Below are positions 40,487 through 63,940 of a stretch of DNA of 64,000 nucleotides, in pieces. Below the pieces are notes generated by a model that saw only the letters and a list, made by a program, of their open reading frames with translations, was not told the origin of the DNA and did not search any database. The stretch covers positions 58,266,270-58,330,269 of the forward strand of contig CAIIXF020000001.1 of assembly GCA_903813345.2 (NCBI GenBank). The letters run 5' to 3'. Position numbers and translations under genes: made by a program. The stretch's first letter is position 1. The number at the start of each line of letters is the position of its first letter. Source of the stretch: Owenia fusiformis (taxonomy: Eukaryota; Annelida; Polychaeta; Sabellida; Oweniidae).

Positions 40487-43400
40487 CTGAAATTGCATTC
40501 ACATTTTTGTTTAATTTTATGTGAGAGAATATATGGAATCTAGAAACAATAATTTCAATATGCCACATAAACTGAATCTAAACCTGCTTTTGTAATGACA
40601 CCATAAAAATTCACAGATTTGTGAAAATCAATTATTGTAAGCATTCTGGTTAGATGGATATATTGCAGTATGTTAAATATATAATCATCTTGTTTTGTAT
40701 AATGCTAAAGAACAAACAAATATATACATACATTAATATCATGTAAAAACAAACTGTTTAGTTGTCTTACTTTTTTAACACTTTTCTGGAAAAGCTGGAT
40801 GAATTGTCGTGACTTGAGTATTTGTCCCATCTCCTTGGCGGAATGGTTTGGAGAAACTAACTTCTCACTGGTGATTATGCGAAATAATCTCTGCAAGTAG
40901 AACATATGTAATGTTAAGGTAGTCAAAGTGTTATAGTACTAAGGAATAGTCAAGGTTAAAGTAGGCACACCTTGAAAATCCAGAAAATATGAATTTGCAT
41001 TTTTGAAAATCCAGAAAAAATTCAAGTACTGGAATCTTATAACCTGATCAAAAGTACCAAATATAAGGTATGGAAATAACAGGAAATTTCATTGAGATAA
41101 CTCTAGGAATCTGACTTTCGGATGTAGATGCGTACAAATAGTGTACTAACATATGCACAGAAGAGAATCAAGTTAATGAGTAAGATTTCTAATGCTGCTT
41201 AACGAATGGGAAATTATTTGTCTCTGTAATTTTTTGTACCAATATAAGCTTATTAAAAGTAAGATCAAAGAAAATTTAATTAAACATTCATGAAATATGT
41301 AGTTGATTGTCACTTTATACAATTTCATATTTTATAGTCAATGAAATTGAAAAGCAATAACTAGATATAGGGGTGTTTTTCTATTTATGTATCATATTGC
41401 TACAAATCGGCATTTGTGCGATGTATAATTTGTTCATCCATATCATACATGTAATATTCTATTGATCCAGAAATTCATGGCTAGAGTAATTCCTGGACAA
41501 AATAATCAATTACAATGCAAACGTCTCCTTTGAGGCCTTCGCTGTTTTTTTCCTATATTTTCTTTATGATTTTTGTAATAAAAATGTCAGAGTGTACATC
41601 ATAAATATGCATTTATTGAGATAGCGCATTAGAATGTCACGGAGGGTCGCTCGTAATGCTGGATTACAAGATAGGAATGTTATGAATTGGCAGTCAAATG
41701 TCATCAATGCTAATACAACTAATTCCCAATGCGAAGGCATTTATTCCATATGAATCTTGAGTGACTTGCTTGCATCATTTTATTATGTCAGATGTAACTT
41801 CATCAGGACATTGGGTGCAAGTGAATGAGTGGGAGCAAGGGAGAGAGTTGGTGCAAGTTAGTGAGCTTGTGCAAGGGAGTCAGTGGGTGCAAGTTAGTGA
41901 GTGCTAAAATATCCATTTTTACAATTAAGATAAAATTGGTCAAATTATGCTTATATTCCATGATTTTCTCATCTTTATGTGAATGTTAATGGATTTTCAG
42001 AAGGGTGCAATCCTCTTTAGAAAAACCTCAGGTTTTAGTGCTGTGGAGACCACTGTAGTACAGTAGTAGTTCACCAGGCCTAAGTTTATGATTAGAGTTT
42101 ACATTGTAATATTGAAAGAATAATGAGTGTGGTTTATTGTACAATTTTCCCAACAAGTTAATAAGCAATGTGCATGCAATGAATTACACTTGTCGTATAA
42201 ATGAAAAATGCAGGTATTCTATTAATAATTTGCTTACTTAGTCATTAGAGAGAAATGAGCAGATAGTTGAAGTTCAAGTTCATTTCCAATTATTGTGGGA
42301 CACTTATTGGCTATGTGTAATTCAGATATTGACTTAGGGATCTATGTCGAGGTTTATTATACCATATTGATTATATAGGTAATTGTCACATCTAATTGTA
42401 TGAGTAGTTTATTCAAGTCAATGTATTGCCATTCACACGTAAAAGACCTATTAGTTTAGTTTGAGTTATTTTCTAATAAAAGACATATTTCTGCCATCTT
42501 GTCGAAAAAGAATTGAATATGCCAGAATCGTGATTTATTTCATACAAATTCGTTATACTCTAAGAGCGAGGAGGAAAATTCTTAATAAATGGAGTATAGT
42601 TGGTTTGGAAGCATTTTCAGTTAGAGGGAAGTCTTGGGTGAAAATTCTACCTAGGTGATAGCTTCACAGAGTGGTACATAATTCTTTTTTCTCAGGGGTT
42701 AGCCCCCACCCCCCAAAAACACCCCACCCCCGATAAATATTTTTTTCATTCTCAATAACTTTAGATATCTTGATGTTTGTAAGTTACATACAAAAACATT
42801 ATATATATGAATCATTTGCAAAATAAATAATGCCAATCACTCCTACAGAATTTGAAAAATAGTACAAAGTATGTACCCCAGGGGGCAAATTCGTGACCCA
42901 TTTTCTTACTATTTAGAGCCTCACTTTTCAACCAGACACTGGAAGACATTGGAAAATTTCATGTGAAGTGCCCAGTAGCAGGACTATAAGTCCTGAAAGG
43001 GTCAAACTAATTGAATCAGTAGGAGCTGAGAAAAAAAAATTGTTGATTTTTTGAAAATTTTGACATTTTTGAGAGGGGTGATTTTGTGCATGACTATAGC
43101 TGATGCCTATGGTTTCCAGATCTATCCCTCTTTGATGATAAATATGGTTTTGAAGTATGGAACTAAGATGTAAAAACTAATTAAAATGGGTTTTAAGGAA
43201 GTTTAGTGTTTTAAACAGGTTCAAAATTCGAAGAATTGTACAATATCAGGTCTGAATTTACGAATTTTAGGTAAGACCTTGGATGAGCCTTAGATTTTTT
43301 ACATCTGTCCCCCTTTGATGATATTTATGGGTTTGTAGTGTGGAACAAAGATGTACAAAATAATTTAGATGGTTTTTAAGAAGATTAAAGGATTAATTTA

Positions 43401-46400
43401 AACAAGTTCAAAATTTGAAGAATTGTATAATATCAGGTCTGAATTTACGAATTTCAGGTAAGACCTTTGGTGAGCCGTATATTTTTCACATCTGTCCCTC
43501 TTTGATGATATGTATGGTTTTGTAGTGTGAAACTAATATGTAAGAAATAACTTAGATGGAGTTGAAGAAGGTTTAAGGATTTTAATGAGTCCAAAATTTG
43601 AAGAATTGTAAAATATCAGGTCTGAATTTACAAATTTATGGTATGACTTTGGATGACCCTTATGTTTTTATATCTGTCCCTCTTTGATGATATTTATGGT
43701 TTTATAGTAACGCACTAAGATGTAAATATAATTTAGATGAATTTTAAAAAGGTTTAACGACTTTTAACAAGTTCAAAATTTGAAAAATTGTATAATATCA
43801 GGTCTGAATTTACGAATTTCAGGTAAGACCTTTGGTGAGCCATATATTGTTTATATCTGTCCCTCTTTGATGATATGTATGGTTTTGTAGTGTGGAACTA
43901 AGATGTAAAAAAAACAATTAAGATGGATTTTAAGATGGTTTAAGGATTTTCACATGTTCAAAATCTTGGCGCATTGTACAATATTAGGTCTGCAATTAAC
44001 ACTAGATTTCAAGTATAACCTTGGTTGACTCTAAACATTTAGAAAAAATTGTTGACATGGGGTCCCTATTCTCATGGTGAAATATATGACTGTCAATCAC
44101 TTGCCATAATGCACATGGATATGTCATTCCTTTTCATGTCTATTTGCTAAAAATCCCCAAAGTGTACACTTTATTTCAGGAAAACTGAAGATTTCTACAA
44201 TAATGTATTATTTTTCCATAAGAATGGTTACCGTTCTTGTTATTTTGAGAGAATTTAAACATTTTTCACCCATTTTTGCTCTTTGAATCCATTATAACTT
44301 CATCAATTTTTAACACATCGTGAATCTTTTTGGAGATATTGTATTAGAGATTGTAAGGAATAGATTGGTACATGAATTGTACATGTTGCTTGTAATTTTG
44401 TCACATCCATAGATCTGATTCTGCCTTTAAACTTTACAAATCATGAATCTTTTTGGAAATATTATATTAGAGATTGTAAGGAATAGATTGGTACATGAAT
44501 TGTACATGTTGCTTGTAATTTTGTCACATCCATAGATCTGATTCTGCCTTTAAACTTTACAAATCATGAATCTTTTTGGAAATATTGTATTAGAGACTGT
44601 AAGGAATAGATTGGTACATGAATTGTACATGTTGCTTGTAATTTTGTCACACCCATAGATCTGATTCTGCCTTTAAACTTAACAAATCATGAATCTTTTT
44701 GGAAATATTGTATTAGAGACTGTAAGGAATAGATTGGTACATGAATTGTACATGTTGCTTGTAATTTTGTCACACCCATAGATCTGATTCTGCCTTTAAA
44801 CTTTACAAATCATGAATCTTTTTGGAAATATTATATTAGAGATTGTAAGGAATAGATTGGTACATGAATTGTACATGTTGCTTGTAATTTTGTCACACCC
44901 ATAGATCTGATTCTGCCTTTAAACTTTACAAATCATGAATCTTTTTGGAAATATTGTATTAGAGACTGTAAGGAATAGATTGGTACATGAATTGTACATG
45001 TTGCTTGTAATTTTGTCACACCCATAGATCTGATTCTGCCTTTAAACTTAACAAATCATGAATCTTTTTGGAAATATTGTATTAGAGATTGTAAGGAATA
45101 GATTGGTACATGAATTGTACATGTTGCTTGTAATTTTGTCACACCAATAGATCTAATTCTGCCTTTAAACTTCCTTAAAACCCATCTAAATGTTTTACAT
45201 CTTAGTTCCATACTACTAAACCATATATATCATCATAGAGAGATACATACCTGAAGTTCGTTAAAGTCAGAAGATATGATATTGTCCAATTTGTCAAGTT
45301 TTGAACAGGTTTTAAAACCTTAAACCTCCTTAAAACCCATCTAAATTATGTTTTACATCTTAGTTTCATACTACAAAACCATATATGTTATCATAGAGAG
45401 ATATATGTAAAAAACGAATAAAAGCCATCCACAGTTATACCTAAAATTAATAAATTCCAGACCTGTTATTGTACAATTCTTCAATTTTTTAACTTGTTTA
45501 AACCTTTAGCTTCTTTAAAACCTTAAATTATGTTTAACATCTTAGTTCAACACTACTAAAGCATATATGTCATCAAAAAGGGATAGATGTAAAGAACACA
45601 AGGCTCGCCTTAATACCTAAAATTCATTAATATCAGCTCTGATATTGTACAATTTGTCAAAATTTAAACTTGTTTAAAACCTTAAACTTCCTTAAAACCC
45701 ATCTTAATTATGTTTTACATATTAGCTCCATACTACAAAACCATATATATCATCATAGAGAGATACATACCTGAAATTCGTTAATGTCAGAAGATATGAT
45801 ATTGTACAATTTTTCAAGTTTTGAACAGGTTTTAAAACCTTAAACCTCCTTAAAACCCATCTTAATTATGTTTTACATATTAGCTCCATACTACAAAACC
45901 ATATATGTTATCATAGAGAGATATATGTAAAAAACAAATAGGGGCCATCCAGAGTTATACCTAAAATTAATAAATTCCAGACCTGTTATTGTACAATTTT
46001 TCTTTTTTTAACTTGTTTAAACCTTAAACTTCTTTCAAACCTGTCTAAACTTTGTTTAACATCTTAGTTCAACACTACAAAAGCATATATGTCATCAAAA
46101 TGGGATAGATGTAAAAAAACATAATACCTAAAATTCATTAATATCAGCTGTGATATTGTACAATTCATCAGAATTTGAACTTATTTAAAGCCCTAAACTT
46201 CTTTAAAACCCATCTTAATATCCCAGATGCGAGTAGAAATAATCTTGATTTACGTCATTAAAAATTCACAATTCAGTCAAACTGATGTCATATTTGGAAT
46301 CTACATGTAAAATTACATCTAGAAATGTGGTTTTAAAAAGTGTTTATCAACTTTGAAAAATTAATTTTCTTTGAAAATGTGACTTCTAGGTCGGGGAGAT

Positions 46401-49400
46401 TCCCCATAGAGCCCATGTTGTAAAACCACAAAAAGTGAAATATATTTTCTTGTGTTGGGCAGATAATATTTTCTTTTACTGGACATATTTGAATTTGCAT
46501 AACTATTAGATACATAAAGGTAATATGAAAAGTGAACCATTAAAACTGATGCATATTCAAGTTTAAGGGAATTTTGCAATACCCTGCCATGTTAATTCCC
46601 CCGAATCAGCCACCTGGTGGCGAAACTGGTAACTGCCTACTCGCATCTGAGTAATTATGATTTACATATTAGCTCCATGCTACTAAACCATATATATCAT
46701 CAAAAAAGGATAGATGTTAAAAATATAAGGGCCAAGCAAGGTTTTACTTTAAATTCATTAATTTCAGATCTGATATTGTACAATATGCTAAGATTTTGAA
46801 CTTGTTTAAAACATTAAGCTTCTTTAAAACCGATTTAAATTATGTTATACATATTTCCACACAGCTAAACCAAATATATCAGGAAAAGGGGATAGGTGTT
46901 AAAATCATATGGGCTAACCAAAGTTATACTTGAAATTCATTCATTGCAGACCTGATATTGCACAATTCTTCAAATTAAAATCCTTAAACCTTCTTAAAAT
47001 GCATCTAAATTATTTTTTACATCTTAGTTCCACACTACAAAACCATACATATCATCAAAGAGGGGCAGGTATAAAAAAAATATAAGGCTCATCCAAGGTC
47101 TTACCTAAAATTTGTAAATTCAGACCTGATATTGTACAATTCTTCAAATTTTGGACTTGTTAGAATCCTTGAACCTTCTTAAAATTCATCTAAACTATAT
47201 TTTACATCTTAGTTCCACACTATAAAACTATAACTGTCATTAAAGAGAGACAGATGTAAAAAAAACAAAAGAGTCATCCAAGGTAATACCTATAATTTGA
47301 AAATTCGGACCTGATATTGTACAATTCTTTAAATTTTTGACTCATTAAAATCCCTAAACACTCTTCAAAACCATCTAAATCATTTTTTACATCTTAGTCC
47401 CACACTACAAAACAATACATATCATCAAAGAGTGACAGATGTAAAAACATAAGAGCCATCCAAGGTCTTACCTGAAATTCGTAAATTCAGACCTGATATT
47501 GTACAATTCTTCAAATTTTGAACTTGTTTAAACCCTTAAACCTTCTTAAAAACCATCTAAATTATTTTGTACATCTTAGTTTCACACTACAAACCCATAA
47601 ATATCATCAAAGGGGGACAGATGTAAAAAATCTAAGGCTCATCCAAGGTCTTACCTAAAATTCGTAAATTCAGACCTGGTATTGTACAATTCTTCGAATT
47701 TTGAACTTGTTTAAAACACTAAACTTTCTTAAAACCCATTTTAATTAGTTTTTACATCTTAGTTCCATACTTCAAAACCATATTTATCATCAAAGAGGGA
47801 TAGATCTGGAAACCATAGGCATCAGCTATAGTCATACACAAAATCACCCCTCTCAAAAATGTCAAATTTTTCAAAAAATCAACAATTTTTTTCTCAGCTC
47901 CTACTGATTCAATTAGTTTGACCCTTTCAGGGCTTATAGTCCTGCTACTGGGCACTTCACATGAAATTTTCCAATGTCTTCCAGTGTCTGGTTGAAAAGT
48001 GAGGCTCTAAATAGTAAGAAAATGGGTCACGAATTTGCCCCCTGGGGTACATACTTTGTACTATTTTTCAAATTCTGTAGGAGTGATTGGCATTATTTAT
48101 TTTGCAAATGATTCATATATATAATGTCTATGTTTGTAACTTACAAACATCAAGATATCTAAAGTTATTGAGAATGAAAAAAATATTTACCGGGGGTGGG
48201 GTGTTTTTGGGGGGTGGGGGCTAACCCCTGAGAAAAAAGAATTATGTACCACTCTGTGAAGCTATCACCTAGGTAGAATTTTCACCCAAGACTTCCCTCT
48301 AACTGAAAATGCTTCCAAACCAACTATACTCCATTTATTAAGAATTTTCCTCCTCGCTCTTAGAGTATTATGAAATTCTGCATATATTTTGTTAAGGATG
48401 TTGATGCTTCATTCCTGTCATCTCTACAAAGCTTTATATGTGATTTGATCCCTTCAAAGCTGACATGACACTATTCCTACAAACCTTATCTGATCCAATA
48501 CCTATAAAGCTTACATTACCCAATACTTACAAACCTTACATGACCCAATGTGTTCATAATAGCTTATATCACCCGAATTCCTACAAAGCTGATGTCATCA
48601 TCCAATCCTACAAAGCTTATGTAACCTGATCCCTTCTAATGTTACATGACCCGATCCCTTCTAAGCTTACATGACCCGATCCCTTCTAAGGTTACATGAT
48701 CAAATCCCTTCTTAGATAACATGACCAAATCCTTACAAATCTTACATGACCCAATCCCTTCTCAGCTTACATGACCCGATCCCTCCTAAGCTTACATGAC
48801 CCGATCCCTTCTAAGCTTACATGACCCGATCCCTTCTAAGGTTACATGACCCGATCCTTTCTAAGCTTACATGATCAAATCCCTTCTTAGCTTACATGAC
48901 CAAATCCCTACAAATCTTACATAACCTGATCCCTTATAAGACTACATGACCTGATCCCTTCTAAGGTTACATGACCCGATCCCTTCTAAGCTTACACGAC
49001 CCGATCCCTTATAAGCTTACATGACCAAATCCCTACAAATCTTACATAACCCGATCCCTTATAAGACTACATGACCCGATCCCTTCTAGGCTTACATGAT
49101 CAAATCCCTTATAAGCTTACATGACCAAATCCCTACAAATCTTACATAACCCGATCCCTTATAAGACTACATGACCCAGTCCCTTCTAGGCTTACATGAC
49201 CAAATTCCTTTTAAGCTTATATGACCAAATCCCTTCTAAGCTTACATTACTAAATCCCTACAAAGCTTACATGACCCGATCCCTTCTCAGCTTACATGAC
49301 CCAATCCCTACAAAGCTTACATGACCCAATCCCTACAAAGCTTACATGACCCAATCCCTACAAAGCTTACATGACCCAATCCCTACAAAGCTTACATGAC

Positions 49401-52400
49401 CCAATCCCTACAAAGCTTACATGACCCAATCCCTACAAAGCTTACATGATCCAATCATTAAAAAACTTATGTAACCTGATTGCTACAAAGGTTACGTGAC
49501 ATGATTCTGATTTTATAAATGAATACTATTGCACTCAAGAGAGGAATTAAAAATAATAGCATGAGCATGTATATAAATCCATTACAATGTTAAACAGGGG
49601 CCAGATCAAGGCATACAGTGCTTGTGAACAATGAACAATAAATTACTAAGAATCAAGCATGTCCAAAATCTAATCTGTTCTTGATTCTCGTACTCTAGTC
49701 ATGATAAAAAGCAAGTTTTTATGGGAAACACACTGAAAATTGAATGAACGACTAGAAGTTGATCCTGAACCTTAGTTTGCTAAGTATCTGAAAAACTGCT
49801 TCTTTGAAACAGTCCCCTTACACCTAATTGATACTTCATGATGAACATCCCTCTAATGCAGCTATTTAAATATTACCTGACTGATAAACATCATGTGAAG
49901 GCTCTTAAAGAAGCTTTTGGAGTTCCTCCTGCGGCACCAGGGGACGAACCACTTGAACAAGGCATATTCCATTGACAACAACATAATAAAGGAGAAGATG
50001 AGAGCACCCAGCAGTACATAGAATAAACCAGCAAAATGTGTTGGTTGTAGACCCTCTTGTTTCGCCCCCTCTCTGGCACATGCTCGTACATTGAAGTAGT
50101 GACGTCTGAGGTCCTCTATGTATCCACTTTCGTGGTAGTCTAATATCTTCTTAGACAACACTTCCTGTGAGCATATAGGTAAATATGCATGTTAGTTAGG
50201 GTGTTAGTACTTTAGGATAGTGTTTTCATTTTCTGAGTAAGTGTAAGATGGGAATAGCTTTGATCCCTTGTAGTGGCTATAATTATGTTATATAGTTTGG
50301 AATACAAGTATCTTATCAAAAAAATGGAAGAATAAAGGTGCATTCAAAATCATTTGATACACTAAGAAGGAAAATAATTTAAATTAAAGTTACAAATGAA
50401 CTAAAAATGTATGTTTGGTTCACTCTTGTTCACTATACTATAAAACATATGTGTTGTATTGTAGGCTCACCTGAATCCATGAGTTTTTCTGTAGGCCTAT
50501 TCCATAGCCATCATCCCCAAAGCCCTGCCCTACCATCTTTAGCTTACAGTCGTTGTCCATAGTGGCCCTGGCATACTCCAAAACAGGAGTATCATCGAGG
50601 TAAGCATCTATCTTACCAGTTCTACAATATGTTATTGAATTAATATACAGTTTAAAATACATGTACATTGTAATATTTCTATACAGAGTGAGGCATAATT
50701 TTACAAAGGTTGCCTTATAAGGGGATCGTTAACAGAATATTTTGTCAAAATATTTTGTTGGTATAAAAATATTTAGTTATTGATGCATTGTGTCAAATAA
50801 CTGGGTACATACAATACAAGCATTTGTCTGTGTTAAGATTTAAGTTTATATAGTGTATAGATTCAAACTAAGCAATATTTAGCATAAAGATATTTTCTCT
50901 TGGAATGTTTTATGAGTTTTATGATAGTTACTTGGAGACCAATTATTTTAATTGTGACCTGCCTTCAAATAAACAACTTCATAAAACTGATATCTTAAAA
51001 TATACCGGATTTCTTATTATATTGATAAATGGTAAAGCTTCAAATTCAATTCATAATGATAAAACAAGATACAGTAGCATTAAATATCGACAGTCAAACC
51101 TATATGTGTGAACATAAAAATCTTAACACTGAATTGCATACTATGATTCTGGATATTCCATTGTATACTGTATACCCAAAATTGTTTATTACAATGTATA
51201 TATTCTAGTTTTTTTAAAAAGAATAGTATGTTTGAATGCTCTTCTTCATATTTTTTTTGCTTATCTATAATACTAGTATGTCAGCTGTTTTCGTTAGTGA
51301 CAGATTTTCCTGATCTGTGTTGAAAGATTATTCAGATTAAGTTTTTTTTATTCAGCTTATGGTTAGTTGCTACCTCTTGGACATAAAACATATATTCAAT
51401 TAAATATTTGGCATCGACTGATTTGATTAAATATATGACATGGACCAATTCAGTAGTTTATTGTTGAATGCTTTCCATGCCTATGGTCAACCTCCAAATG
51501 CAGGACTCCAGGCATCATCTACTCTGTTCCTTCCTTCTTGGAGTGCACTGTCGATGATATCTGGAGCTCTCTGTTTGGAGGATGGCCAAAGGTAGAAATC
51601 AACAAATATTTTCCAATAATATGATCTAATTTCAGGGTTCACAACTAAAGTTGAAAACGTGATTACCCCAATTTAATATATTTCCATCAATACATTGTCC
51701 AATAGGCAACTTGTTTTTTTCATTGGATTTCAACAGCCATCTTGCCAAGTTCATTGCCAGGGGTGAAAGGTGATTGCTGTTAACAGCCAGGCAGCTGTGA
51801 GTTGTTTCGAACCCCGCTAAATCATTTCATCCATCATCTAGTCTTCTTTTTTAATATCATTTTAATTTGAGATATCAAGAGTTACATTAATTCAATACAA
51901 TATTGTTAACCGTGACAGTTAACACACATATGCTGACGTATTTATTGCTACTGGCATATTCAAGCGAGAATTCATAAAAGAATTGATTATTTGAATTTAT
52001 TTCTAGACATAAGTTGACTCAGGCAACATGAACAATTGGATTAAAGGCATGTATTGGAAACACAAAAGTAACAGTTAGATAATTCGACAGCACAATCAAT
52101 TGCAAACTCAATTGGTGTCTCTCCTTAGGAAATATTTCATGAATTGATTTTAGATGAGACTTTTATCAGGATTTGAACAAAAGGTAAAATGTTAAGATAA
52201 GAAAAGAGGTAAATATTAGATTGACATACATACTTGGATTGAGCATTGTTCAAAATGTTGGCTTAAGCAAGGGCAAAATTTTGAATTAAGGAGCAAAACT
52301 TTGTATTAAAATTGACAAAAACTTGGATTAAGTAAGGGGCAAAACTATGAGTTGAGCAAGGGGCAAAATTAGAAATAAACAAGGAGCAAAACTTGATTAA

Positions 52401-55400
52401 GCAAAGGGCAAAACTTGATTGAGCAAAGGACAAAACTTTTGATTAAGCAAGGGGTAAAACTGTGTATTAAACAAGGTGCAAAACCTTTGGATTAAGCAAG
52501 GGGTGAAACTTTGGATTTAAAGCAAGGGACAAAACTTTGGATTCAGCAAGGGACAAAACTTTGGATTCAGCAAGAGGTAAAACTTTGAATTAAGAAATGG
52601 GATAGCTGAATTATGTAAGCAAGGGGCAAAAGTTTGGATTGGGCAAGGGGTAAAACATTGAATTAAGAAATGTAACAAACTGAATTATGTAAGTATGGGG
52701 AAAAACTTTGGATTGACCAAGGACCAAAACTTTGGGTCAAGCAAGGGAGAAAACTATGGATTAAGCTAGGGGCATTACTTTGGATTGAGCATAGAGAAAA
52801 ATTTGATTGAGCGAGGGAACAAGTTTTGATAAAGCAAGAGTCGAAGCTTTTTATCTGTTCAAAGATTGAAGCTCTATATTATTAACAAGGGGCACAAAAT
52901 GTACTCTTACATGTAAGGGGAGATCAATAAGTTCTTCAAATTTGATTAAGTTACATTCTATCTGTTTTTGTACACTGCTTCAGTTTAAGGACTTCTATTA
53001 TTGTGCATTCAGTCCTAAGAGTGCATGCTTTCATACTTTGTGACATTCACAGTGTTTATATTGAAAACACAAGATATGAATTCCGGCAATGCTTCTAGCA
53101 CTATTAATCCATGATTACACCAAAGTTGCACTTTATTGGCGTTTTATTATTCATATATTGACAGAATTGCGCAATGTATTCATTAGTTTAGGGTTAATGT
53201 CTATGCATTGAAGTTTACCAGATGTAATAAATTGGGAAGAGGGTAAAATTGAAATGAAATTGATCACATTTGAGGAGGGGGTCAAATTGAAAAAGAGTTT
53301 TCACATTTGGGAGGGGATAAAATATTGAATGGAATTCATCACATTTGGGGATGGGGTCAATTTGAAATGCAAATTTGAAACAACCTCGAAATAATGAAAT
53401 AATGGCCTGGATCCTAATGATTAGTTTACTTCATTGAAACTAACTGAAAACTCAATAAAGGCGGAAGTTATTGATGCCCAAAATCAGTGTCCTTATTAGT
53501 GTCCCTATATGCACCTTATAATGGCTTAATAATGCACCATGTTTCTGCCATTCGTCTGTTTGTTCATCCATTTATACATCTGTCCTTTTATGTCAGGTGA
53601 TAAATCAAATACTGCCTGATTGACCCAGTTCAAATTTGATAGGCTGATACTGCCTGATAATGAGTTTTCGATATACAATTAGTGACACAAATCCTCTGCC
53701 TATGAAGAATTCCCAAGATGGCTGCTAAATTCAAAATGGCTGACAATTTTCATGGGAGGAAGGAGGAATTTTCAAAATGGCCACTGTTTTAAAGAAGAAA
53801 TATCCAATAATGCAACTAACTACTTGTTATCAGATCTGGTCTAATTATATTTTTGTAACTATCATGGATATAGAACTTCTAATAAAGATAGAATTTCTAA
53901 AATGGTGTTATATGGTGTGTAGATTTTGATTTTGCAAAAAGGAAACAATATTGCATGGTTATTTCTATCGAATAATGTTCTCAATTATGAGTGATTGACA
54001 AAATTTATTTTGTTCATTGGGATTTGTTACTCTAGTGGGTTGCTGTTTTTTCTGTTATGAAGTGTAAAAATTGAAAATTAAAAAATAGAAAAACATTAGG
54101 TATAGGAATGAAAAAATGCATGTGGGGATTTTGAGAAAGCACATAAAGATCAACCAACATTAGAAAAGAAAAGCGAGAATAACATGAACTTGATGAAGGT
54201 CTATGGTAATATTTACAGAAGAGAGTAAACACATACGTTAATTTAGTTATAGAGTGCGAAGGTTCTAAGTCAGGATCAACCCGGATCAGTTTTGCGAACA
54301 TCTCAGGATTCACATGCCTTACAAATTCCTCTACTGCCGAGCCTCGGTATGACAGAATTCTCATTTTATTTTGGAGAAGCTATTGAAATGGAAGATAGCA
54401 AGATGATTGAGTATGAATATAAGACACACTTGAGCCTATCAGGCTCTTCATCAAGGAATAAAGATCTGTACTCTTATTCCACAATGTAGAGCCCATGATA
54501 TAAGATCAAGGTATATGGGTCATGGGTACCTATAGCTATACATTCCTTGCCTCAAACCAAATATTACAAGAGTTGTAGTCTCAACCCCACACTTGTAGAA
54601 CCAAAATCAGAGACTTAACCCTGCATTGTATGAGAATGATGGAATCTAGCCATATTCCACTCTAAGCAAGGCAAGGGATCTATAGGTATAGTATGTGTGT
54701 TGTGATGTGTACATGTTAAGGCAAAGTGCTCAAACAGTGCATACAGTGCTGTCAAATATCCATCCTACAAGAGAAAACCATGCAAGATGCAGTCACAATA
54801 AGCCATCTGTTCTATAAACAGCACAAACATTTAGTTAGGAGAGTTATAGACAAACAATCTTCATACGCAGGCTCATATTTATAAGTCTGACAGGCAAGGA
54901 GTTGGCATTCGGTCATATTGAGGGTTGCTATTAGTCTTTCACCCAATTCGCCATTCCACAGAGTCGTTTGAATTGACATTTCTAAAATTGACAGTTACAG
55001 GAATTGATATATTGATATGCATAAATATTCTATCCCTGATCGGATTACTTTGATATGTTTCGTCATAGCAGAGCCGCAATGTCACAACGATGTGCAGAGA
55101 AGTTGAATGACTTCAGCTTTTGAATTGACCGCATTAGTTAACCCATTAGTGACAGATCATCATTATTCTGCAGAAGTAATGTCAGTACCTCTCATAAAGT
55201 CTTCTTGAGTAGTTTATTGATGGAAGAATAAAAAAAAAGATAAGATGCAAGAAGAAATTATTGTGATTTTTATTATAAAATATTCAAAACAAATCAGGAT
55301 TCTTCACAAAAGTCAATAACCTTCTGGAGCTCATCTCAGATGGTAATTTGTTTAAAATATCTTAAGATGAGCTTTTGTTGTTATAAATATCTCATAAAAA

Positions 55401-58400
55401 CAATGTTGTATCAAAGTACTGAATTTTGTCTCAGATAGTTTGCATTTACATGTATTAAATTGTTTGTGCATCTTAAATTTCTGTTGTGAGCATTGAGATT
55501 CAAACACTGAAAGTAAAACCCCAACATCCCAGCTTTTTCACTACTTTTTCCATGAATATATATTGAAAGTTTTTTTATTTTTAAATTATTAGCACAAGGG
55601 TTGCTAATATTCTGAACAAAACCATGTCAAATTTGTAATGATAAAATCACCTTTATCTATGTGTTATGAAAACGGATCTCAAATCAAGCCTAAATAAATG
55701 TCCTGGCCATATTCATATCACCGACAAGCAATCTTCTATTTCACTTGGGACTTCTGTGATAGGCATTGCTGCATAGCAATACAAAGAGTCTTGTCGGGAT
55801 CGACTTGATTGAACGTTTATTTATCAGACACATAAAAAGACTCTGAGTAATGTCTTAACCGAAGCCCCTAAAGGCAGTTGATTTCCTCAACTTTTCAATA
55901 CTTGGTTACTATCCCAAGGCTTGTTTCTTTAACCATTGTATTTCAAAATTACTGGAATTCTTCCACAATGCTACTTGGCATTCAGTCATGTAATTGGAAT
56001 TTCACCAATTGATTTCTATGATATTTGTACAATGTTCGACTCTTGGACTCTTCATGTCCACATTCAACTTGATTCAAATTAGTTGGAGCTGCATGCGATT
56101 TGGTGAAATTGAAATTATATAAAAATTAATCAAATATATTTTAGGTTAATTTTAACTTTGAAAATATTTATGAATATTTTGAAACTCAGTTCTCTCTATG
56201 TATACTTCTGATTCAATATAACTCTGAGACAATGTGGCGGGTCTGTAGAGGGTATTGATAAATTGTTTATTTGTGATATCACCACAGTTGGTGGATCAAT
56301 GCTATTTAATTAAAATACTTTGTGGAAACAGACCTGTTTGCTAAATGGATACAGAGAAAATGTACAAACAGAAATTGAAATATTGACCAAATTGGCCTTC
56401 TATTTAAATATGGATAATGTTGCCTCTGAGAATTATTGACAATATTTTCATTTTTATTCCCATTAGGGAACCTATTTATTCCATGCATGTTATTAGACTT
56501 ACATGGTTATGCTAGGCTATTATAGATTATTTCATCTAGATTCTGATTGAAAGATATGTTTTCAAATGTTGCCTTTGGTGTTGTACTATTATTAACCCAT
56601 TAATAACATATGGTTGAATGTGGTTTGAAGAGAATTGGTTTCATATTTCAAGAGAATTGGCTTCATATTTCATGTGTCAAAGTAGGATAATAGTTTTTAT
56701 GGTTGATAAATGAACTCAGGTACACTTTCGAAAGTTGCCTAGTCTACTTTGGCAATAGTATACCCTTGCAACAGTTTACTTTGGCAATAGTATACCCTTG
56801 GAATAGTCTTCTTTGACAATAGTCTTCTTTGACAATAGTATACTCTTGCAACAGTCTACTTTGGCAATAGTATACCCTTGGAAAAGTCTTCTTTGACAAT
56901 AGTATACCCTTGAAATAGTCTACTTTGGCAAGTAGACTTGCTAAATAATTTGAATAATGGACTTGAATAATGGATTTTGACTATGCAATTCAATATATGC
57001 AAAGCCATTGGTAAATATATTTCTGATACATATTTTAAATAAAATTGCTTAGTAATATATTTGGAATTAAAACATAAAGCCGAATGGGTATCGAAGTCAT
57101 ACAAAAAGTGCACACGTTAAAGTTTCTGTTCATATCAGATTTCTGAAATACTACTTATTAGATATTGTGTTACCTTGACCAGAATAATTTCAGGCAAAAT
57201 TAACTGTTTATCTGGAATGCCATTCACAGTCTACGCACGCGAGAATGTGTATCCAAAAGATAACGAGAAATATGAAATTACACATAAATTCTGTTTCCAA
57301 TGTGGGTGAGATAACTCCTCTTATTAATCAAATATACACAAGAGAAGTAATGGGTTATGATACACTTGCAAACACATTTTATAGATCTTTAATTAGACGT
57401 ACTATGATGAAGGTGATTATGAAATAACATGTATATTAAAATTACTAAGCTTAATGTCATTATTATTAGAAGCCAACAAGTCTTATATTATCGAAGCCTA
57501 CACGACTTTCACATCTATTGTTACACAATAGCAATTCTCAATAAGGAAGAATGCCAAATTTGCCCATCAATAATGTGTATAGAGATATATCAATAATCTG
57601 TTTGGAGACACATAAAGAATGTGTCTTCAGACACATCAAGAATCGCTTGGGAGACACATAAAGAATGTGTCTGGAGATTATCAAGAATATGTCTTGGCAT
57701 ATTTCGAGAATGATTTGTTTGTAGACACATCAAGAATGTGTTTGGAGACACATCAAGAATATGTTTGGAGACACATCAAGAATGTGTTTAGAGGCACAGC
57801 AAGAATGTTTCTGGAGATAGAGGGAATATCTAGATGAGATCAATCATGAATATCACTCCCTAGGGCAGTGTAAGAACAATGTCAGAACATAACTTCCCAA
57901 CTAACGACCCCAGGGGGACATATAGAAATATGACAAAACACGCAAAAGCCATCATCTCATGGAAAATGCAGAGGTCAATGTGGACATACTTCAGTGCTTG
58001 GACACCCTCCATTGTGCTGGGCTGTTGGTTCTTCACTGTATGCTCATACAGTGGAGGGTTGAGTAACTTGATATAACTCTGTACTGAGCTGCTAGCCAAA
58101 GATCCAACACGATCATCAAATAACTAAATAAAAATAATATGAGAGAGATTAATATCACGAGGGAGTAGTATTCTGCTAAGGTCTCTGGTAATCCATCACT
58201 GGCTTGTTGCAGCGCCTCTTCGTGCAATGCAATATTAATGGCATGATTAATTCTGCTAGATGCTCTGTTATCTGGTTATACATACTGCACCTTGGCATCT
58301 GCTTAGCTCCGCATTGTGCAGCTCTATAGTGTACAATCAATAGGCTGTAAAATGAAGTATTCACATTGAGAAGTCTGTCATTACTGGTTATTATTTATCA

Positions 58401-61400
58401 ACACTTTTCATCTTTCACCTTGCTGTTAAATCTAAATGTTACTTTGATGACAAGTATACAATATTGATCAGGATGGGACGTTATTTATTCTTGAATCCTA
58501 GAAATAAAGCACGTTTTAATGAGACAGTCAGAAGTAGATTGATTTTTTCTTTTTAGCAATTAGTATAAAACAATACACTTCTAATGGTGTTAGCGAGCTT
58601 AAGTAAAGTCAACGTGGAAACTGAATTATATTATATATTCCCATTGAAGCAACGTGGTGGTCTTCGGCTGCTATTCCATGGCTATTACTTATGTAATTAC
58701 CAGAACATATTAAAGTAAAATCAAAAGAATTCTCAATAACGAGTAGCATAAATAATGCAATCATGTCATGAAACCTTGGCATTAACATCATGCTAGCTTT
58801 GAGAGTGTTGTTCTCTTACCTTTGGATCGTGTATACCACTGATCAGAAGAGCCTCGTTCTTTCCAGCAATAAAGGCCGCCAGGTTAGCTGTGTAGCTAGC
58901 GAAGATAAAAATTGATGAAGCAGCCCAAAAATTTTGGAACCATTTACACGGCCAGGATTTAGGACTTTTAGTTTTTACTGTGTGGCCAAAGAGAATTGCA
59001 TAGACCATATTAAGTGCTGATGCCAGCGTGTAGTTTTTGGCGCGTTTTCTGCCCCAAGGGTTAAGTCCAAAAGGACTGTTCCATTCAAACAATGCCATAG
59101 CAATAGCAGTAACAGTAGCAGACACTGCTATACAGATCCACACACTTTCATCAAATGGTTGAGAAAAGGCATTATAATCAACTTCCTTCTTTTTCTCTGC
59201 AGCCAAAATTGAGAAGCCAGAGTGAAAGTATGGTTCAGTGTAGTCAATAACAGCACTTCGGCTGCCTGTTATACTGAAAGCAGCCATAGCCATTTGGGCA
59301 GCTCCACTTTTCAAATCAGCCACTAGTCCATTCCAGGAACCATTTACTATTGCTCCATACATGCCATCCCCTACTATGTATAAATCATAGTCAAACTCCA
59401 AGTCTCTGGAGAGTCGCTCTAGAATATCAATAGATAACCCTTCACAGCATTTAATCTCATAGGGCCTGGATGGGGATATTGTTCCATTTGCATAGTCATC
59501 GAATATAGCATCGAGAGTTGTGACATCACGTGTGCCATTAACATCCAAACAAGGGACGGTTGACACACATGACTTATCCTCCTTATATGGTGTAAAGGCT
59601 CTCACGAATGGCTCAACAATATTAGTCACAACACGATATTTCTTCTTTCCTCGTGATAGAGGACCTGATACTGTATTCCCTGGCCACACTATGGTTGTAA
59701 CATTTACAATGTCATTATGAACTGAGCCTATTTTTCTCCATTTTTGACTACCATAAATGGAGACAAGATTTATGATGCTGAAATTTGCCTGCTCCCTATA
59801 ACCCTGTTCATTGAAGGATAAAGGCCCGCCTTTTCCTTTGTAGTTGATTTGAAGAAGTGAACTGAAACAATGAAAAGGATATCATTAAAAGGATGACTTA
59901 AAGGATAGCCTGAAAAAAGATAATGGAAAGGATAACATGGCAAAACTATGCAATTTCAAAATATAAAATTCTTCAATCCCTCGGAAAATTCACTTTATTA
60001 ATGATTACTAATAAGTGCTTAATAAATGCTAACACAAAGGATAACATTGAAATGCTAACACAAAGGATAACATTAAAATGATAATACAGAGCATAACATC
60101 AAAACAAAACAAAATGAGGCAGAATGGTATATACAGTATAAGAATTGCTATAAAATGAATCGGTATAAGTGCAACTATTTCCAGTAAGTGCAATCAAATT
60201 AACTGCTTATATCATCTAGGAGAAACCACATAACATACCTTCATTAGTAATTGCAATATAGTTATTTTAACACCTTTTAATCGCAGAAAATAGAACCCTG
60301 TTACTTTTAAAAGGGATTTATTCTAACTATGAACGCATATCTTGAATCACCATTAGCTAATAACTCTAGAATGATTTTAATTCATAATGATTTATAACTT
60401 ACACAATCAACAGAATGCGACATAGATATATTCTTGTTTATATTCATTGACGCTTTGACAAAATTGAAAGTGAACTAATTGCCATTTGATATTATATTAT
60501 GTTATGGATAAGCTATGAGTACTGGGTTTTACGAGAAATAATAGCCGAGGGCCTTGTTTGGGTGATCAAGGAATTATATATTAATTGAAACTTAAAGACT
60601 GTCAATGGTTAATGAAGTCATGTGAACCTTTTGATATTTTCTCATGTGAATGAGAGTTGCATTTTGACTCTCTACCATGCAGAGAACCCAAATAATGATG
60701 AAGTTAATGATGATGCTCAAGCTATGATCACATTTTACTTTCTTGATGCTTACAGAAGTCTGAATGTAGTATAGTCTTACTAAGGGCAGGCCAAGAAATT
60801 GAAAATTAGGGTACCCTTTTTAAAGAAACTATGCCCATTTTCCATGTAAAAATGAAATCCAAATGGTCCCTCTTCCCCCAGTGTCGCCCTCATTTCTTAA
60901 CATGAACTAACACAGACAATTCAAATATTTAAACAATGATTATCTTCTTAATGTCAGTTCTATTTTAGTGTTTGTTTCTGTAATGTTTCCTGGAAACTAA
61001 TGATTTTACCATTTATGTCTTTAAGGGTTTGAATTAAACAATTGATGTTATATTTTTGTTATTACTGCATTGTAATTTTTCTGAGTCTATCGCACATGCG
61101 ATATACGCAACTGACATTGTTTTCAGTTGAATCTAATCATTATTAATCTGATTATTTCCTTCCATTGGCTTCCCCTTTAAGAATGTATATCTGATATATT
61201 TCTACAACAAACATTAACTAAATAATTAGAATTGATTACTTTCCTTCCTTAACAGTTACATTTAATCATATTCAGGCAATTGTGCACATTCACTTTCTGA
61301 ACAAATTCACATATTTAAATTGCATAATTGTAATCACAAATAACAAATTCTAAAATTATTTATCAATTATTAGAATGATTCACTTCTAGTTGCTCATGTG

Positions 61401-63865
61401 TTTTTAGTTTCTTTTACAATTACTCTGTCTATCATTGTGGTATAATTGCACTAGCTACAATTACTCTGTCTACCATTGTGTTACAATTGCACTAGCTACA
61501 ATTACTCTGTCTATCAATGTGGTACAATTGCACTAGCTACTATACTCTTTCTATCATTGTGGTACAATTGCACTAGCTACAATTACTCTGTCTATCATTG
61601 TGGTACAATTGCACTAGCTACAATTACTCTGTCTATCAATGTGGTACAATTGCACTAGCTACAATTACTGTCTATTATTGTGGTGCAATTGCACTAGCTA
61701 CAATTACTCTGTCTATCATTGTGGTACAATTGCACTAGCTACAATTACTCTCTCTATCAATGTGGTGCAATTGCACTAGCTACAATACTCTGTGTATCAT
61801 TGTGGTACAATTGCACTAGCTACAATTACTCTATCTATTATTGTGGTACAATTGCACTAGCTAGCTACAATTACTCTGTCTATCAATGTGGTACAGTTGC
61901 ACTAGCTACAATACTCTGTATATCATTGTGGTACAATTGCACTAGCTACAATTACTCTGTCTATTATTGTGGTACAATTGCACTAGCTACAATTACTGTC
62001 TATCATTGTGGTACAATTGCACTTGTACAATTACTCTGTCTATCATTGTGGTACAATTGCACTAGCTACAATTTCTTTTTCTATCATTGTGGTGCAATTG
62101 CACTAGCTACAATTACTCTGTCTATCATTGTGGTACAATTGCACTAGCTACAATTACTCTGTCTATCATTGTGGTGCAATTGCACTAGTTACAATTATTC
62201 TGTCTATCATTGTGGTACAATTGCACTAGTACAATTACTCTATCTATCATTGTGGTGCAATTGCACTAGCTACAATACTCTGACTATCATTGTGGTGCAA
62301 TTGCACTAGTTACAATTACTCTGTCTATCATTGTGGTACAATTGCACTAGTACAATTACTCTGTCTATCATTGTGGTGCAATTGCACTAGCTACAATTAC
62401 TCTGTCTTTCATTGTGGTACAATTGCACTTCGTTATCATTTCTTGACTCACAAATCTGTCTTTATATACAAACAATTCCAATCTGTAATTGTGTAAAAAT
62501 TAATTGAATATTAGAAGGATCATTAACTTACAAAAAGTGGCCTGATGGTTTGTAAATGTCAATTTAAATAAAATAATTGAATTTTATGATGGCGCTTGTG
62601 GTACTTCTTTTATTTGCAACCAAAAATAAGATGCACTTTAGTTTGACATGAAGTTCTTTGATCATTGTGGCCCATAATTCTGTAGAGTTATTTTTCAGAT
62701 TAAGATGCCTTTTAATTCTTATTGATTCAGGAAATATGACATTTTATCAAAATAGCTCAATGTCAACACAACCTTTTATATAAAATTAATCATGGCGTAC
62801 ACTTCACTGATATCAAATATGTCTTCTTGTTTTGATTTATGTTTATTAAATGGCAGCGGAGAATAGAATATTTAAAATGGTGGAAACAATATTTACAATA
62901 GACGTGCCAATAATGTTAGCTTACGATTCTCATTTTATTAGCTGAACAAGGCATTGAGAATGAGATGTCTGATGAAATAGATATTTTTGTGAGACAGAAT
63001 GTGGAGAAGAAATGTGATTATGTTTCAGAGATAAATGAATACAAGTGATGAAAAGAATACTACTTTGTAATAGATTACAAATGTACAGAAATATAAATAC
63101 AAAACATAAAATAGGATAACACAAGACAAAGCGAAATAATACAGGGAATGCTGTGAGCAAAAATTCTCAAAAATTGAGACATTTTAAAAGTACCAATAGC
63201 TCGTTCCTAGCTATCCCTTGTTATACATTTAGTATTAAGATTTACCTGTAGAGTGTGTTTGAAATAGACCTAGCCTTGGGGCCAGGTGTTCTCCAACAAG
63301 ACTGTGTTGCAGAGATATCTTCTATAATATGTGCATAGTTGGGAGTGATGAAAGCAAGCTTGTTACTTGCTAGCAAAAATACATGAAGTAAATCATCAAG
63401 AATATTATTTGTGTTCTTATCAAAAACGATTGCAACAAGCCCAACTGGGTAAGCATGTGGTTTCCATTGATGTATTGCAACATCTGTTGTAACCCATGCA
63501 TTCCCTTCTCCCATTAGGCTATCTGCGCCTCCACCGACAGTGGCTGCTAACTCAAAGATACGTCTAGCTAATTTCTCCGAACAATGGAGTATATGAATCC
63601 GTGCCTCGCTATCATGTAGTATGTTGAGTTTACCAACTATTGAATCATCGTCTTCATTCATATTGATCCTCACATCATTAGCTAATGTCCAACGAGTGTC
63701 CAGCCCCATTGTCTGCTTAATTGAGCGTTCAAAGCCATCCGTTGCATAACTTTCCTCTAGGACGAGGGAAATGGTCATCCAATCACTCTCATTGAGAGTG
63801 GCGAGGACCGCTCTGGCCAGGACTGCTCTGGATGGCTCCAGTTGGAGGTAAAGATGTGCATTGTC
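39404..63865 (-). CDS. GRIN3: NMDA-type ionotropic glutamate receptor, GluN3-like (5' part outside window)
   Basis: Ligand-gated cation channel subunit of the cell membrane; GluN3 subunits bind glycine. Exons in coding order: 63865-63246, 59861-58820, one of 58123-57990 or 54379-54237, 50621-50471, 50164-49877, 40890-40771 and 40486-39404; all phases fit. The sequence shows the end of the amino-terminal domain, S1 with NYKGKGGPLSFN and the binding Arg in SITGSRSAVIDY, M1, the pore loop AILFGHTV, M3 with FASYTANLAAF, SGIHDPK, S2 with DNDCKL and GYGIGL, M4, then a long cytoplasmic tail. SGIHDPK, Gly at the pore-tip position and SQRL after M4 all match GluN3 rather than GluN1 or GluN2. More than 1,100 residues are in the window; the N-terminus continues past 64000. 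Confidence 0.93.
40771..40890 (-). CDS. GRIN3: GRIN3 exon: proximal cytoplasmic tail
   Basis: 120 bp, 40 codons, phase 0 to 0, from ctacttgcag to gtaaga. Starts RLFRIITSEKLVSPNHS and ends FQKSVKK. Basic and amphipathic, directly after M4. Confidence 0.85.
40891..42555. other. GRIN3 intron, left part
   Basis: No gene. A short degenerate gtgcaagttagtgag repeat is at about 41815-41910. Otherwise AT-rich sequence up to the foldback element. Confidence 0.45.
44322..45170 (+). repeat. 123-bp tandem array in the foldback centre
   Basis: Seven near-identical units with starts (gaatctttttgga) at 44322, 44445, 44568, 44691, 44814, 44937 and 45060. Each carries ggtacatgaattgtacatgt and gatctgattctgccttt. 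Near identity suggests recent amplification. Non-coding. Confidence 0.93.
46224..46649. mobile_element. Non-autonomous element, agatgcgagtag family, copy 2 (nested)
   Basis: Starts cagatgcgagtag and ends with the exact inverse ctactcgcatctg. It interrupts one of the 182-bp units of the foldback element: cccatcttaata before and taattatgatttacatatta after correspond to a continuous site in sister units. Reverse-oriented relative of 15594-15958. Confidence 0.8.
48430..49500 (+). repeat. 25-bp minisatellite
   Basis: About 40 copies of a 25-bp unit built on cttacatgacccgatccctt then ctaag, with a variant ending ctacaaag. The copies at 49255-49450 are almost perfect; the left end is degenerate. 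Lies between the foldback element and GRIN3 exon 50164-49877. Confidence 0.93.
49877..50164 (-). CDS. GRIN3: GRIN3 exon: end of S2 and M4
   Basis: 288 bp, 96 codons, phase 0 to 0, from tgctcacag to gtaata. Includes GYIEDLRRHYFNVRACARE, the fourth membrane segment (GLFYVLLGALIFSFIMLLSM) and a basic cytoplasmic turn WCRRRNSK. It ends HMMFISQ, which continues RLFRI in the next exon, comparable with LHTSQRLHRA in GluN3A. Confidence 0.92.
50471..50621 (-). CDS. GRIN3: GRIN3 exon: S2 lobe
   Basis: 151 bp from atattgtag to gtgagc, phase 2 to 0. Encodes TGKIDAYLDDTPVLEYARA, then DNDCKLKMVGQGFGDDGYG IGLQKNSWIQ. The Asp in YLDDTP is at the position of the agonist amino-group contact (Asp732 of GluN1). 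The DNDCKL...VG..F...GYGIGL run is close to human GluN3A. Confidence 0.92.
50622..54236. other. GRIN3 intron with degenerate repeats
   Basis: No exon found. About 52230-52870 holds an imperfect tandem repeat of 25-28 bp built on aagcaaggggcaaaactttg. About 53220-53380 holds three copies of a longer cacatttgggaggggataaa unit. About 53530-53770 resembles the tandem-family dispersed repeats with ccaagatggctgctaaattc. Confidence 0.6.
54237..54379 (-). CDS. GRIN3: GRIN3 alternative S2 exon A
   Basis: 143 bp, phase 0 to phase 2, between atttcaatag and a gtatgtg donor. It encodes LLQNKMRILSYRGSAVEEF then VRHVNPEMFAKLI and ends SITKL plus AC, joining to give TTGKIDAY. It aligns with human GluN3A after HDPK (ESSAEDYVRQSFPEMHEY). 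Relative to exon B it shares the L-x-x-[DN]-[RK] opening, the Ser before Ala/Val and the NP-x-[LM]-[YF] patch; it is three codons longer. Confidence 0.85.
56735..56940 (+). repeat. Degenerate 38-bp tandem repeat
   Basis: About six units of tactttggcaatagtatacc cttgcaacagt with variants, in the GRIN3 intron between the alternative exons. Confidence 0.75.
57595..57825 (+). repeat. Degenerate 24-bp tandem repeat
   Basis: About nine units of ggagacacatcaagaatgtg ttt, ending 165 bp beyond the donor of alternative exon B (minus-strand sense). The ORF over it is repeat-derived. Confidence 0.75.
57990..58123 (-). CDS. GRIN3: GRIN3 alternative S2 exon B
   Basis: 134 bp, phase 0 to phase 2, between ttttatttag and a GTATGT donor. 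It encodes 44 residues and two bases, starting LFDDRVGSLASSSVQSYIK and ending MEGVQALK once joined to exon 50621-50471, which then reads ALKTGKIDAY, the typical NMDA receptor motif (GluN2 has LKTGKLDAF). The Ser of SSSV lines up with the glycine-contacting Ser of GluN1 (QSSVDIY). It is homologous to and interchangeable with the exon at 54379-54237. It was not marked by any ATG and is easily missed. Confidence 0.85.
58820..59861 (-). CDS. GRIN3: GRIN3 exon: S1 lobe, M1, pore loop and M3
   Basis: 347 codons from tttcag to gtaaga. Contains the end of the amino-terminal domain (NYKGKGGPLSFNEQGY), S1 with Cys residues and CCEGLSIDILERL, the agonist Arg in ITGSRSAV, M1 (VWICIAVSATVTAIAMALF), FGLNPWGRKR, the pore loop ALNMVYAILFGHTV and M3 (FIFASYTANLAAFIAG). 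It ends exactly after the Lys of SGIHDPK, phase 0. The pore-tip Gly codon is at 58987-58985, where GluN1/GluN2 have Asn. Confidence 0.92.
61416..62430 (+). repeat. 41-bp minisatellite
   Basis: About 24 copies of a 41-bp unit with words attactctgtctatcattgt and ggtacaattgcactagctac in the GRIN3 intron between 59861 and 63246. The long apparent ORFs here come from the array. Confidence 0.93.
63246..63865 (-). CDS. GRIN3: GRIN3 exon: amino-terminal domain
   Basis: About 206 codons between ctgattccag and gtaaat. Starts in phase 0 (DNAHLYLQLEPSR) and ends with two bases of a Ser codon. It covers part of the bilobed periplasmic-binding-like domain; HILHCSEKLARRIFELA and AWVTTDVAIHQW are typical strands and helices of lobe switching. 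This is the first exon inside the window; upstream exons are beyond 64000. Confidence 0.88.
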
Positions 63866-63940
63866 CTGGAATCAGAAAAGTAATAAGACATGTTATCTTC
63901 ACATGAACAGAGTATTGTTTTGGATCATTTATTTTTAATT

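Follow-up and report, generated by a model that had tools for sequence, protein, structure and literature searches.

The window analysed here is a stretch of 64,000 nucleotides (nt) of the Owenia fusiformis contig CAIIXF020000001.1 (assembly GCA_903813345.2), covering positions 58,266,270-58,330,269 of the forward strand. Its minus strand carries a partial NMDA (N-methyl-D-aspartate) receptor subunit gene, comprising an amino-terminal domain (ATD) exon, an S1/M1-M3 exon, an S2 exon, and an M4 exon. Between the S1/M1-M3 and S2 exons lie two diverged homologous exons, B and A, which are probably used as mutually exclusive alternatives.

All exons of the gene lie on the minus strand. The constant ATD exon (63246-63865) is recognised by a Pfam ANF_receptor match of 3e-10 on the open reading frame (ORF) 63242-63871; its splice borders were read by eye and then scored, and remain tentative. 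The constant exon for S1 and M1-M3 (58820-59861, 5' border tentative) matches PF10613 (9e-23), PF00060 (3e-19), and GluN3A, and ends with the residues SGIHDPK at a donor of AAG/GTAAGA. The constant S2 exon (50471-50621) starts with TGKIDAYLDD and carries the counterpart of GluN3A Asp845. The exon for the end of S2 and M4 (49877-50164), which joins in frame and has the donor CAG/GTAATA, matches PF00060 only weakly over 49891-50152 (E 0.12, under the Pfam cut-off). Two tandem arrays accompany these exons, one of 25 copies of 41 bp (61415-62429) between the ATD and S1/M1-M3 exons and one of 40 copies of 25 bp (48448-49456) immediately downstream of the M4 exon.

By sequence, the gene belongs to the GluN3 (NMDA3) class, the glycine type of NMDA receptor subunit, as the sequence-only reading that preceded this analysis had proposed, because the joined isoform with exon B matches GluN3A in the PDB at 4.1e-87, against 3.3e-56 for the best GluN2 (GluN2A) among the best 60 of 389 matches. 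GluN1 does not occur among those 60. The S2 region of the B isoform by itself gives the same order, with GluN3A at 2e-16 and the best GluN2 at 6e-11. Every NMDA class is reported across bilaterians, with echinoderm NMDA2 as the exception (PMC6307864), and the presence of a GluN3 gene is therefore expected by itself.

Exon B (57990-58123, minus strand, 134 nt) and exon A (54237-54379, minus strand, 143 nt) both run from phase 0 to phase 2 and are flanked by one constant pair, the SGIHDPK exon ending at 58820 and the TGKIDAY exon starting at 50621. The coordinates given in the sequence-only reading were confirmed, as were the AG/GT borders and the phases, 0 on entry from SGIHDPK and 2 on exit to TGKIDAY. 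B and A thus form a pair of adjacent homologous exons with equal phases and common flanking constant exons. Intron 1 (58124-58819, minus strand) is 696 nt long, intron 2 between B and A (54380-57989, minus strand) is 3610 nt long and contains tandem arrays, and intron 3 (50622-54236, minus strand) measures 3615 nt; no further exon copy was found in intron 2 or intron 3. The near-equal lengths of introns 2 and 3 were considered as a trace of recent tandem duplication, and this was rejected: the two share no sequence above resampled controls, and the near-equality is possibly a coincidence.

The reading frame separates the possible transcripts sharply. Inclusion of B or A singly leaves the frame open across the S2 and M4 exons, joining B to A brings a stop at the seventh codon (counting the codon that spans the junction), and skipping both brings a stop at the third codon. 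The earlier claim that the frame enforces the use of exactly one exon therefore stands for the named splice sites, but not for all sites, since combinations of alternative nearby GT/AG sites, taken irrespective of strength, keep double inclusion open in 169 of 5720 cases.

The two exons are homologous and strongly diverged, which was the description first given of them; for A the homology is weak but specific. Over the swapped segment, 10 of 42 residues are identical between A and B in a six-sequence MAFFT alignment; identity in the core amounts to 6/27 amino acids (aa) and 33/81 nt, which is near saturation. The A-B alignment score of 42 was matched by 4 of 5000 shuffles. Likeness to GluN3A is about equal for the two (13/44 for A and 14/44 for B in the six-sequence alignment). 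Exon A scores 42 against GluN3A (matched by 2/5000 shuffles) and 33 against GluN3B (28/5000), while for exon B the shuffles matching the real score number 0/5000 against GluN3A, 0/5000 against GluN3B, and 2/5000 against GluN1. Four PDB segments (GluN3A, GluN3B, GluN1, and GluN2A) were combined into a profile that included neither exon, and this was searched against the 1489 stop-to-stop ORFs of the window with at least 25 aa. Exon B ranked first (4.8e-06) and exon A second (0.084), followed by a third ORF at 0.23. Once the profile also included B, A reached E 0.0032 and the next ORF 0.17; once it included A, B reached 9.5e-07 and the next ORF 0.54.

The 8.2 kb between the constant exons were also scanned for phase-compatible AG/GT stretches of 105-180 nt. 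Among the 42 candidates obtained, ten score at least 42 against GluN3A, and these are parts of B (eight) and of A (two). The reverse strand of the interval yielded 36 candidates, with top scores of 22 and 25. Control introns were resampled after excision of exons A and B, as first-order Markov draws and not as exact shuffles, and held a mean of 16.8 candidates compared with the 42 real ones; the score of 42 was reached in 0/100 of them against GluN3A and in 1/100 against exon B. No third copy of the exon stood out among the candidates from either strand of the interval (42 forward, 36 reverse) or among the 1489 ORFs of the window. Exons B and A are genuine features of this sequence.

In the customary nomenclature for this fold, the segment that B and A would exchange spans helices F and G of the S2 (D2) lobe together with its first strand. 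In the column of GluN3A Ser801 and GluN1 Ser688, each of three MAFFT modes run on one set of six sequences places a Ser from exon B and an Ala from exon A, and ungapped pairwise alignments give the same Ser and Ala. Tyr605, Ser633, Arg638, and Asp845 (GluN3A numbering) are matched by the same residues in both isoforms, all lying within constant exons, and both isoforms have Ala for Ser631 and Asp for Met844. GluK2 also has Ala in the Ser801 column, with an adjacent Thr where exon A has Val. In the exon A loop around the counterpart of GluN3A Thr825, the profile and six-sequence alignments disagree. In GluN3A, the glycine carboxyl contacts Arg638, Ser633, and Ser801, the glycine amino group contacts Ser631, Ser633, and Asp845, and Tyr605 forms the lid; GluN1 Ser688 contacts the agonist through its backbone amide and its hydroxyl (PMC8007919). 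According to a structure-prediction paper, Ser801 interacts with glycine through hydrophobic contact and with D-serine through a hydrogen bond (PMC11368749). The sequence-only reading had held that each exon keeps the Ser that contacts agonist, which is right for B and wrong for A. Its proposal of different ligand-lobe surfaces is correct in that the lobe segment differs, but the difference goes beyond surfaces to an agonist-contact position. With Ala instead of Ser in A, the finding becomes more pointed, because the choice of exon would extend into the pocket.

The splice sites of both exons had been called good. This fits the acceptors, which are fair and ordinary for this gene, with pyrimidine fractions of 0.76 (B) and 0.71 (A) compared with 0.47-0.82 in four constant exons, but not the donors, GAA/GTATGT in B and AAC/GTATGT in A. 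Paired with what we take to be the U1 end sequence, in duplexes free of splice-register constraint, the donors of B and A reach -4.3 and -3.8 kcal/mol, against -8.1 to -11.1 kcal/mol for the four placeable constant donors, and that of exon A is the weakest U1 match among the six scored. Two weak donors suit regulated alternatives, although decay is expected to give the same. Words of the YCAY type number 9 and 10 per 300 nt around A and 4 and 6 around B, counted without a control.

The mutually exclusive pair first proposed remains the best account of the sequence, given the frame logic, the GluN3 identity, the profile ranks, and the core identity. We consider it probable that B and A are mutually exclusive homologous GluN3 exons, derived from an old duplication, and that they exchange a section of the S2 lobe in which the agonist-contact position lies. 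A single exon of the GluN3 gene would have been duplicated long ago, giving the diverged copies between common constant exons, and each productive mRNA would take exactly one of them. Double or empty transcripts would meet a premature stop and presumably undergo nonsense-mediated decay. The swapped stretch would comprise the 44-47 residues after M3 and its linker, so that the two predicted subunits would have a common ATD, S1, pore, and remaining S2, with the agonist site walled differently on its D2 side. The family Ser (GluN3A 801, GluN1 688) would be present in isoform B, and isoform A would present Ala at GluN3A 801 together with a helix F-G loop of different build. The weak donors on both copies would suit a regulated choice, with exon B as the likely default because it lies nearer the upstream exon and has a slightly more pyrimidine-rich acceptor.

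Several results weigh against this interpretation. Against GluN1, exon A does no better than chance, with 2929 of 5000 shuffles scoring as well, and its profile E value is not significant alone. In searches with each exon alone, with E values allowed up to 10, exon A finds no glutamate receptor and 3 unrelated matches in the PDB, exon B finds only GluN3B (0.42) and GluN3A (0.91) there, and neither exon matches any Pfam family. The S2 region of the A isoform matches GluN3A at 5.9e-13, and this is owed largely to its constant part. The signal of A is thus weak on its own, and the case for it therefore also leans on its place, phase, and strand. The S1/M1-M3 exon, compared with genome contigs without animals (21 pattern matches) and viral contigs (11), gave 0 confirmed matches. 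The weak donors fit a decaying exon too. Pairing between the introns reached best scores of 12.5, 13.5, and 14.5, below the control maxima of 15, 15, and 17 (30 resampled controls each, of the kind described above), in a test on one genome to which short conserved pairings are invisible, and no Rbfox-type motif lies within 300 nt of the exons. The Ser-to-Ala swap may by itself have little consequence, because in human GluN1/GluN2A the corresponding GluN1-S688A gives only a modest rise in the half-maximal effective concentration (EC50) of glycine, from 2.96 to 5.02 uM (PMC12199545).

As to how exclusion could work, steric interference through a too-short intervening intron does not apply, intron 2 being 3610 nt long. 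With no inter-intron pairing above control and no Rbfox-type motif, the frame is the sole exclusion device seen, and the open combinations of other sites mean that it is not absolute.

The strongest rival holds that exon A is a relic which lost its function fairly recently, leaving B as the sole exon in use. The donor of A, its lack of the contact Ser, and the poor alignment of its second half to GluN3A all fit a relic, while the donor of B is nearly as weak. That 47 codons remain open, with the two splice sites and the right length preserved, at near-saturated divergence speaks against it. Drift was simulated from the present exon A, a copy counting as intact if its two splice sites survived and its frame stayed open. 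Without indels, the exon stayed intact in 35%, 14%, 1.7%, and 0.2% of runs at 0.1, 0.2, 0.5, and 1 substitution per site; with indels at an assumed rate, it did so in 11%, 1.3%, and 0.004% at 0.1, 0.2, and 0.5 substitutions per site. Neglect of A since the duplication is unlikely, because the core is near saturation and a drifting copy seldom stays intact. A recent loss is more compatible with the simulation, given the survival at 0.1 substitutions per site, and we regard a relic as unlikely overall.

Both exons could also be used without a strict either-or choice, with other sites giving partial double inclusion, or with A representing splicing noise. The open combinations of nearby GT/AG sites would permit this, as would a second phase-compatible end of exon A at 54231. 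The named sites close double inclusion, however, and a doubled part of the lobe would be ill-suited to the known fold, which makes such use quite improbable. Least probable of all is that the likeness of exon A reflects chance in an open stretch of an AT-rich intron: the missing PDB and Pfam receptor matches of A alone, its profile E value, and the one resampled intron that equals its score against exon B would allow it, whereas A ranks second of 1489 ORFs, sits on the expected strand of the expected intron with fitting length and with fitting phases at both ends, and is equalled in its GluN3A score by no resampled intron.

If the two exons are used alternatively, the isoforms likely differ in agonist potency, selectivity, or gating, without a plain loss of binding. 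Binding loss is not expected because Arg638, Ser633, Tyr605, and Asp845 all have their counterparts in constant exons. The idea that isoform A fails to bind agonist was weighed and set aside, given the mild effect of GluN1-S688A and the Ala of GluK2 in the same column. Surface expression of GluN1-S688A is about 76% in HEK (human embryonic kidney) cells (PMC12199545). The bulky substitution GluN1-S688Y slows desensitisation of GluN1/GluN3A and leaves fewer GluN3A-containing receptors at the surface (PMC7596085). A more far-reaching proposal, which we find possible but somewhat short of an even chance, is a splice switch that rewrites the pocket. The Ser801 subunit would then carry a glycine- or D-serine-like site, and the Ala801 subunit would have another ligand or potency, or would act as a weakly liganded partner that alters GluN1/GluN3 trafficking and desensitisation. 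If true, one gene would pick its ligand response through splicing, the share of the D2 lobe in GluN3 glycine selectivity would become testable with natural variants, and an animal gene would have a further route to receptor diversity.

The remainder of the window holds other features. The inverted arms of a foldback-like element (42546-48377) overlap and together span about 1.4 kb, among the best 25 of 35 inverted pairs. The outer 492 nt of the element are 98% complementary, its inner parts consist of tandem units of about 183 bp, and in its centre lies an array of 7 copies of 123 bp (44313-45172); no clear target-site duplication was seen at 42546-48377. A condensin-II subunit G2-like gene is represented by pieces on the plus strand at 17000-19584, with PF12422 at 3e-13 (17000-17428) and at 1.5e-4, under the Pfam cut-off (18469-18690), and a HEAT repeat at 3e-5 (19207-19584). 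A single sulfotransferase ORF of 353 aa occupies 28293-29354 on the plus strand (PF13469, 5e-11), and a single rhodopsin-family GPCR (G-protein-coupled receptor) ORF of 305 aa occupies 10429-11346 on the minus strand (7tm_1, 3.5e-41). A transposase-like fragment at 471-842 on the minus strand (DDE_3, E 0.0024, under the Pfam cut-off) presumably resembles a mariner-type transposase. The window contains no tRNA and no Rfam family reaching its gathering score.

Among known systems, the vertebrate GRIN3A and GRIN3B genes share the subunit class of the Owenia gene by sequence, and the Owenia gene retains the counterparts of Tyr605, Ser633, Arg638, and Asp845. The vertebrate genes differ in splicing: a human RNA-seq survey reports no relevant alternative splicing for them, with GRIN3B hardly detectable, and the rodent GluN3A-long form differs in the C-terminal domain (PMC8257547). 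Among the titles listed by searches of openly licensed papers, none points to a mutually exclusive pair at the corresponding position of a GluN subunit. Exclusive exons in ionotropic glutamate receptors are known from flip/flop; neither this place nor this subunit turned up in those searches.

The AMPA receptor flip/flop exons of GRIA1-4 resemble the Owenia pair: they are homologous and mutually exclusive, encode a portion of the ligand domain's S2 half, and are of similar size (115 nt; PMC8257547). These alternative exons tune gating. They lie at the end of S2, at the dimer interface and the S2-M4 linker, whereas the Owenia pair follows directly after the M3 linker (SGIHDPK); the pair is thus not placed at the end of S2 before M4, and it holds the agonist-contact position. 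Flip and flop differ in 8-10 of 38 residues (PMC8257547), compared with 32 of 42 aligned residues between Owenia A and B. For flip/flop as well, no device of exclusivity apart from decay is reported as known (PMC8257547). A functional likeness is offered by exons 6a/6e of COQ-2 in C. elegans, which are mutually exclusive, swap part of an active site, and alter substrate choice (PMC8659336). COQ-2 is an enzyme and not a channel, and its case includes transcripts, genetics, and two residues found critical by genome editing, whereas the Owenia pair is a prediction from DNA. The active-site residues of the COQ-2 e-type are reported in molluscs and annelids too (PMC8659336).

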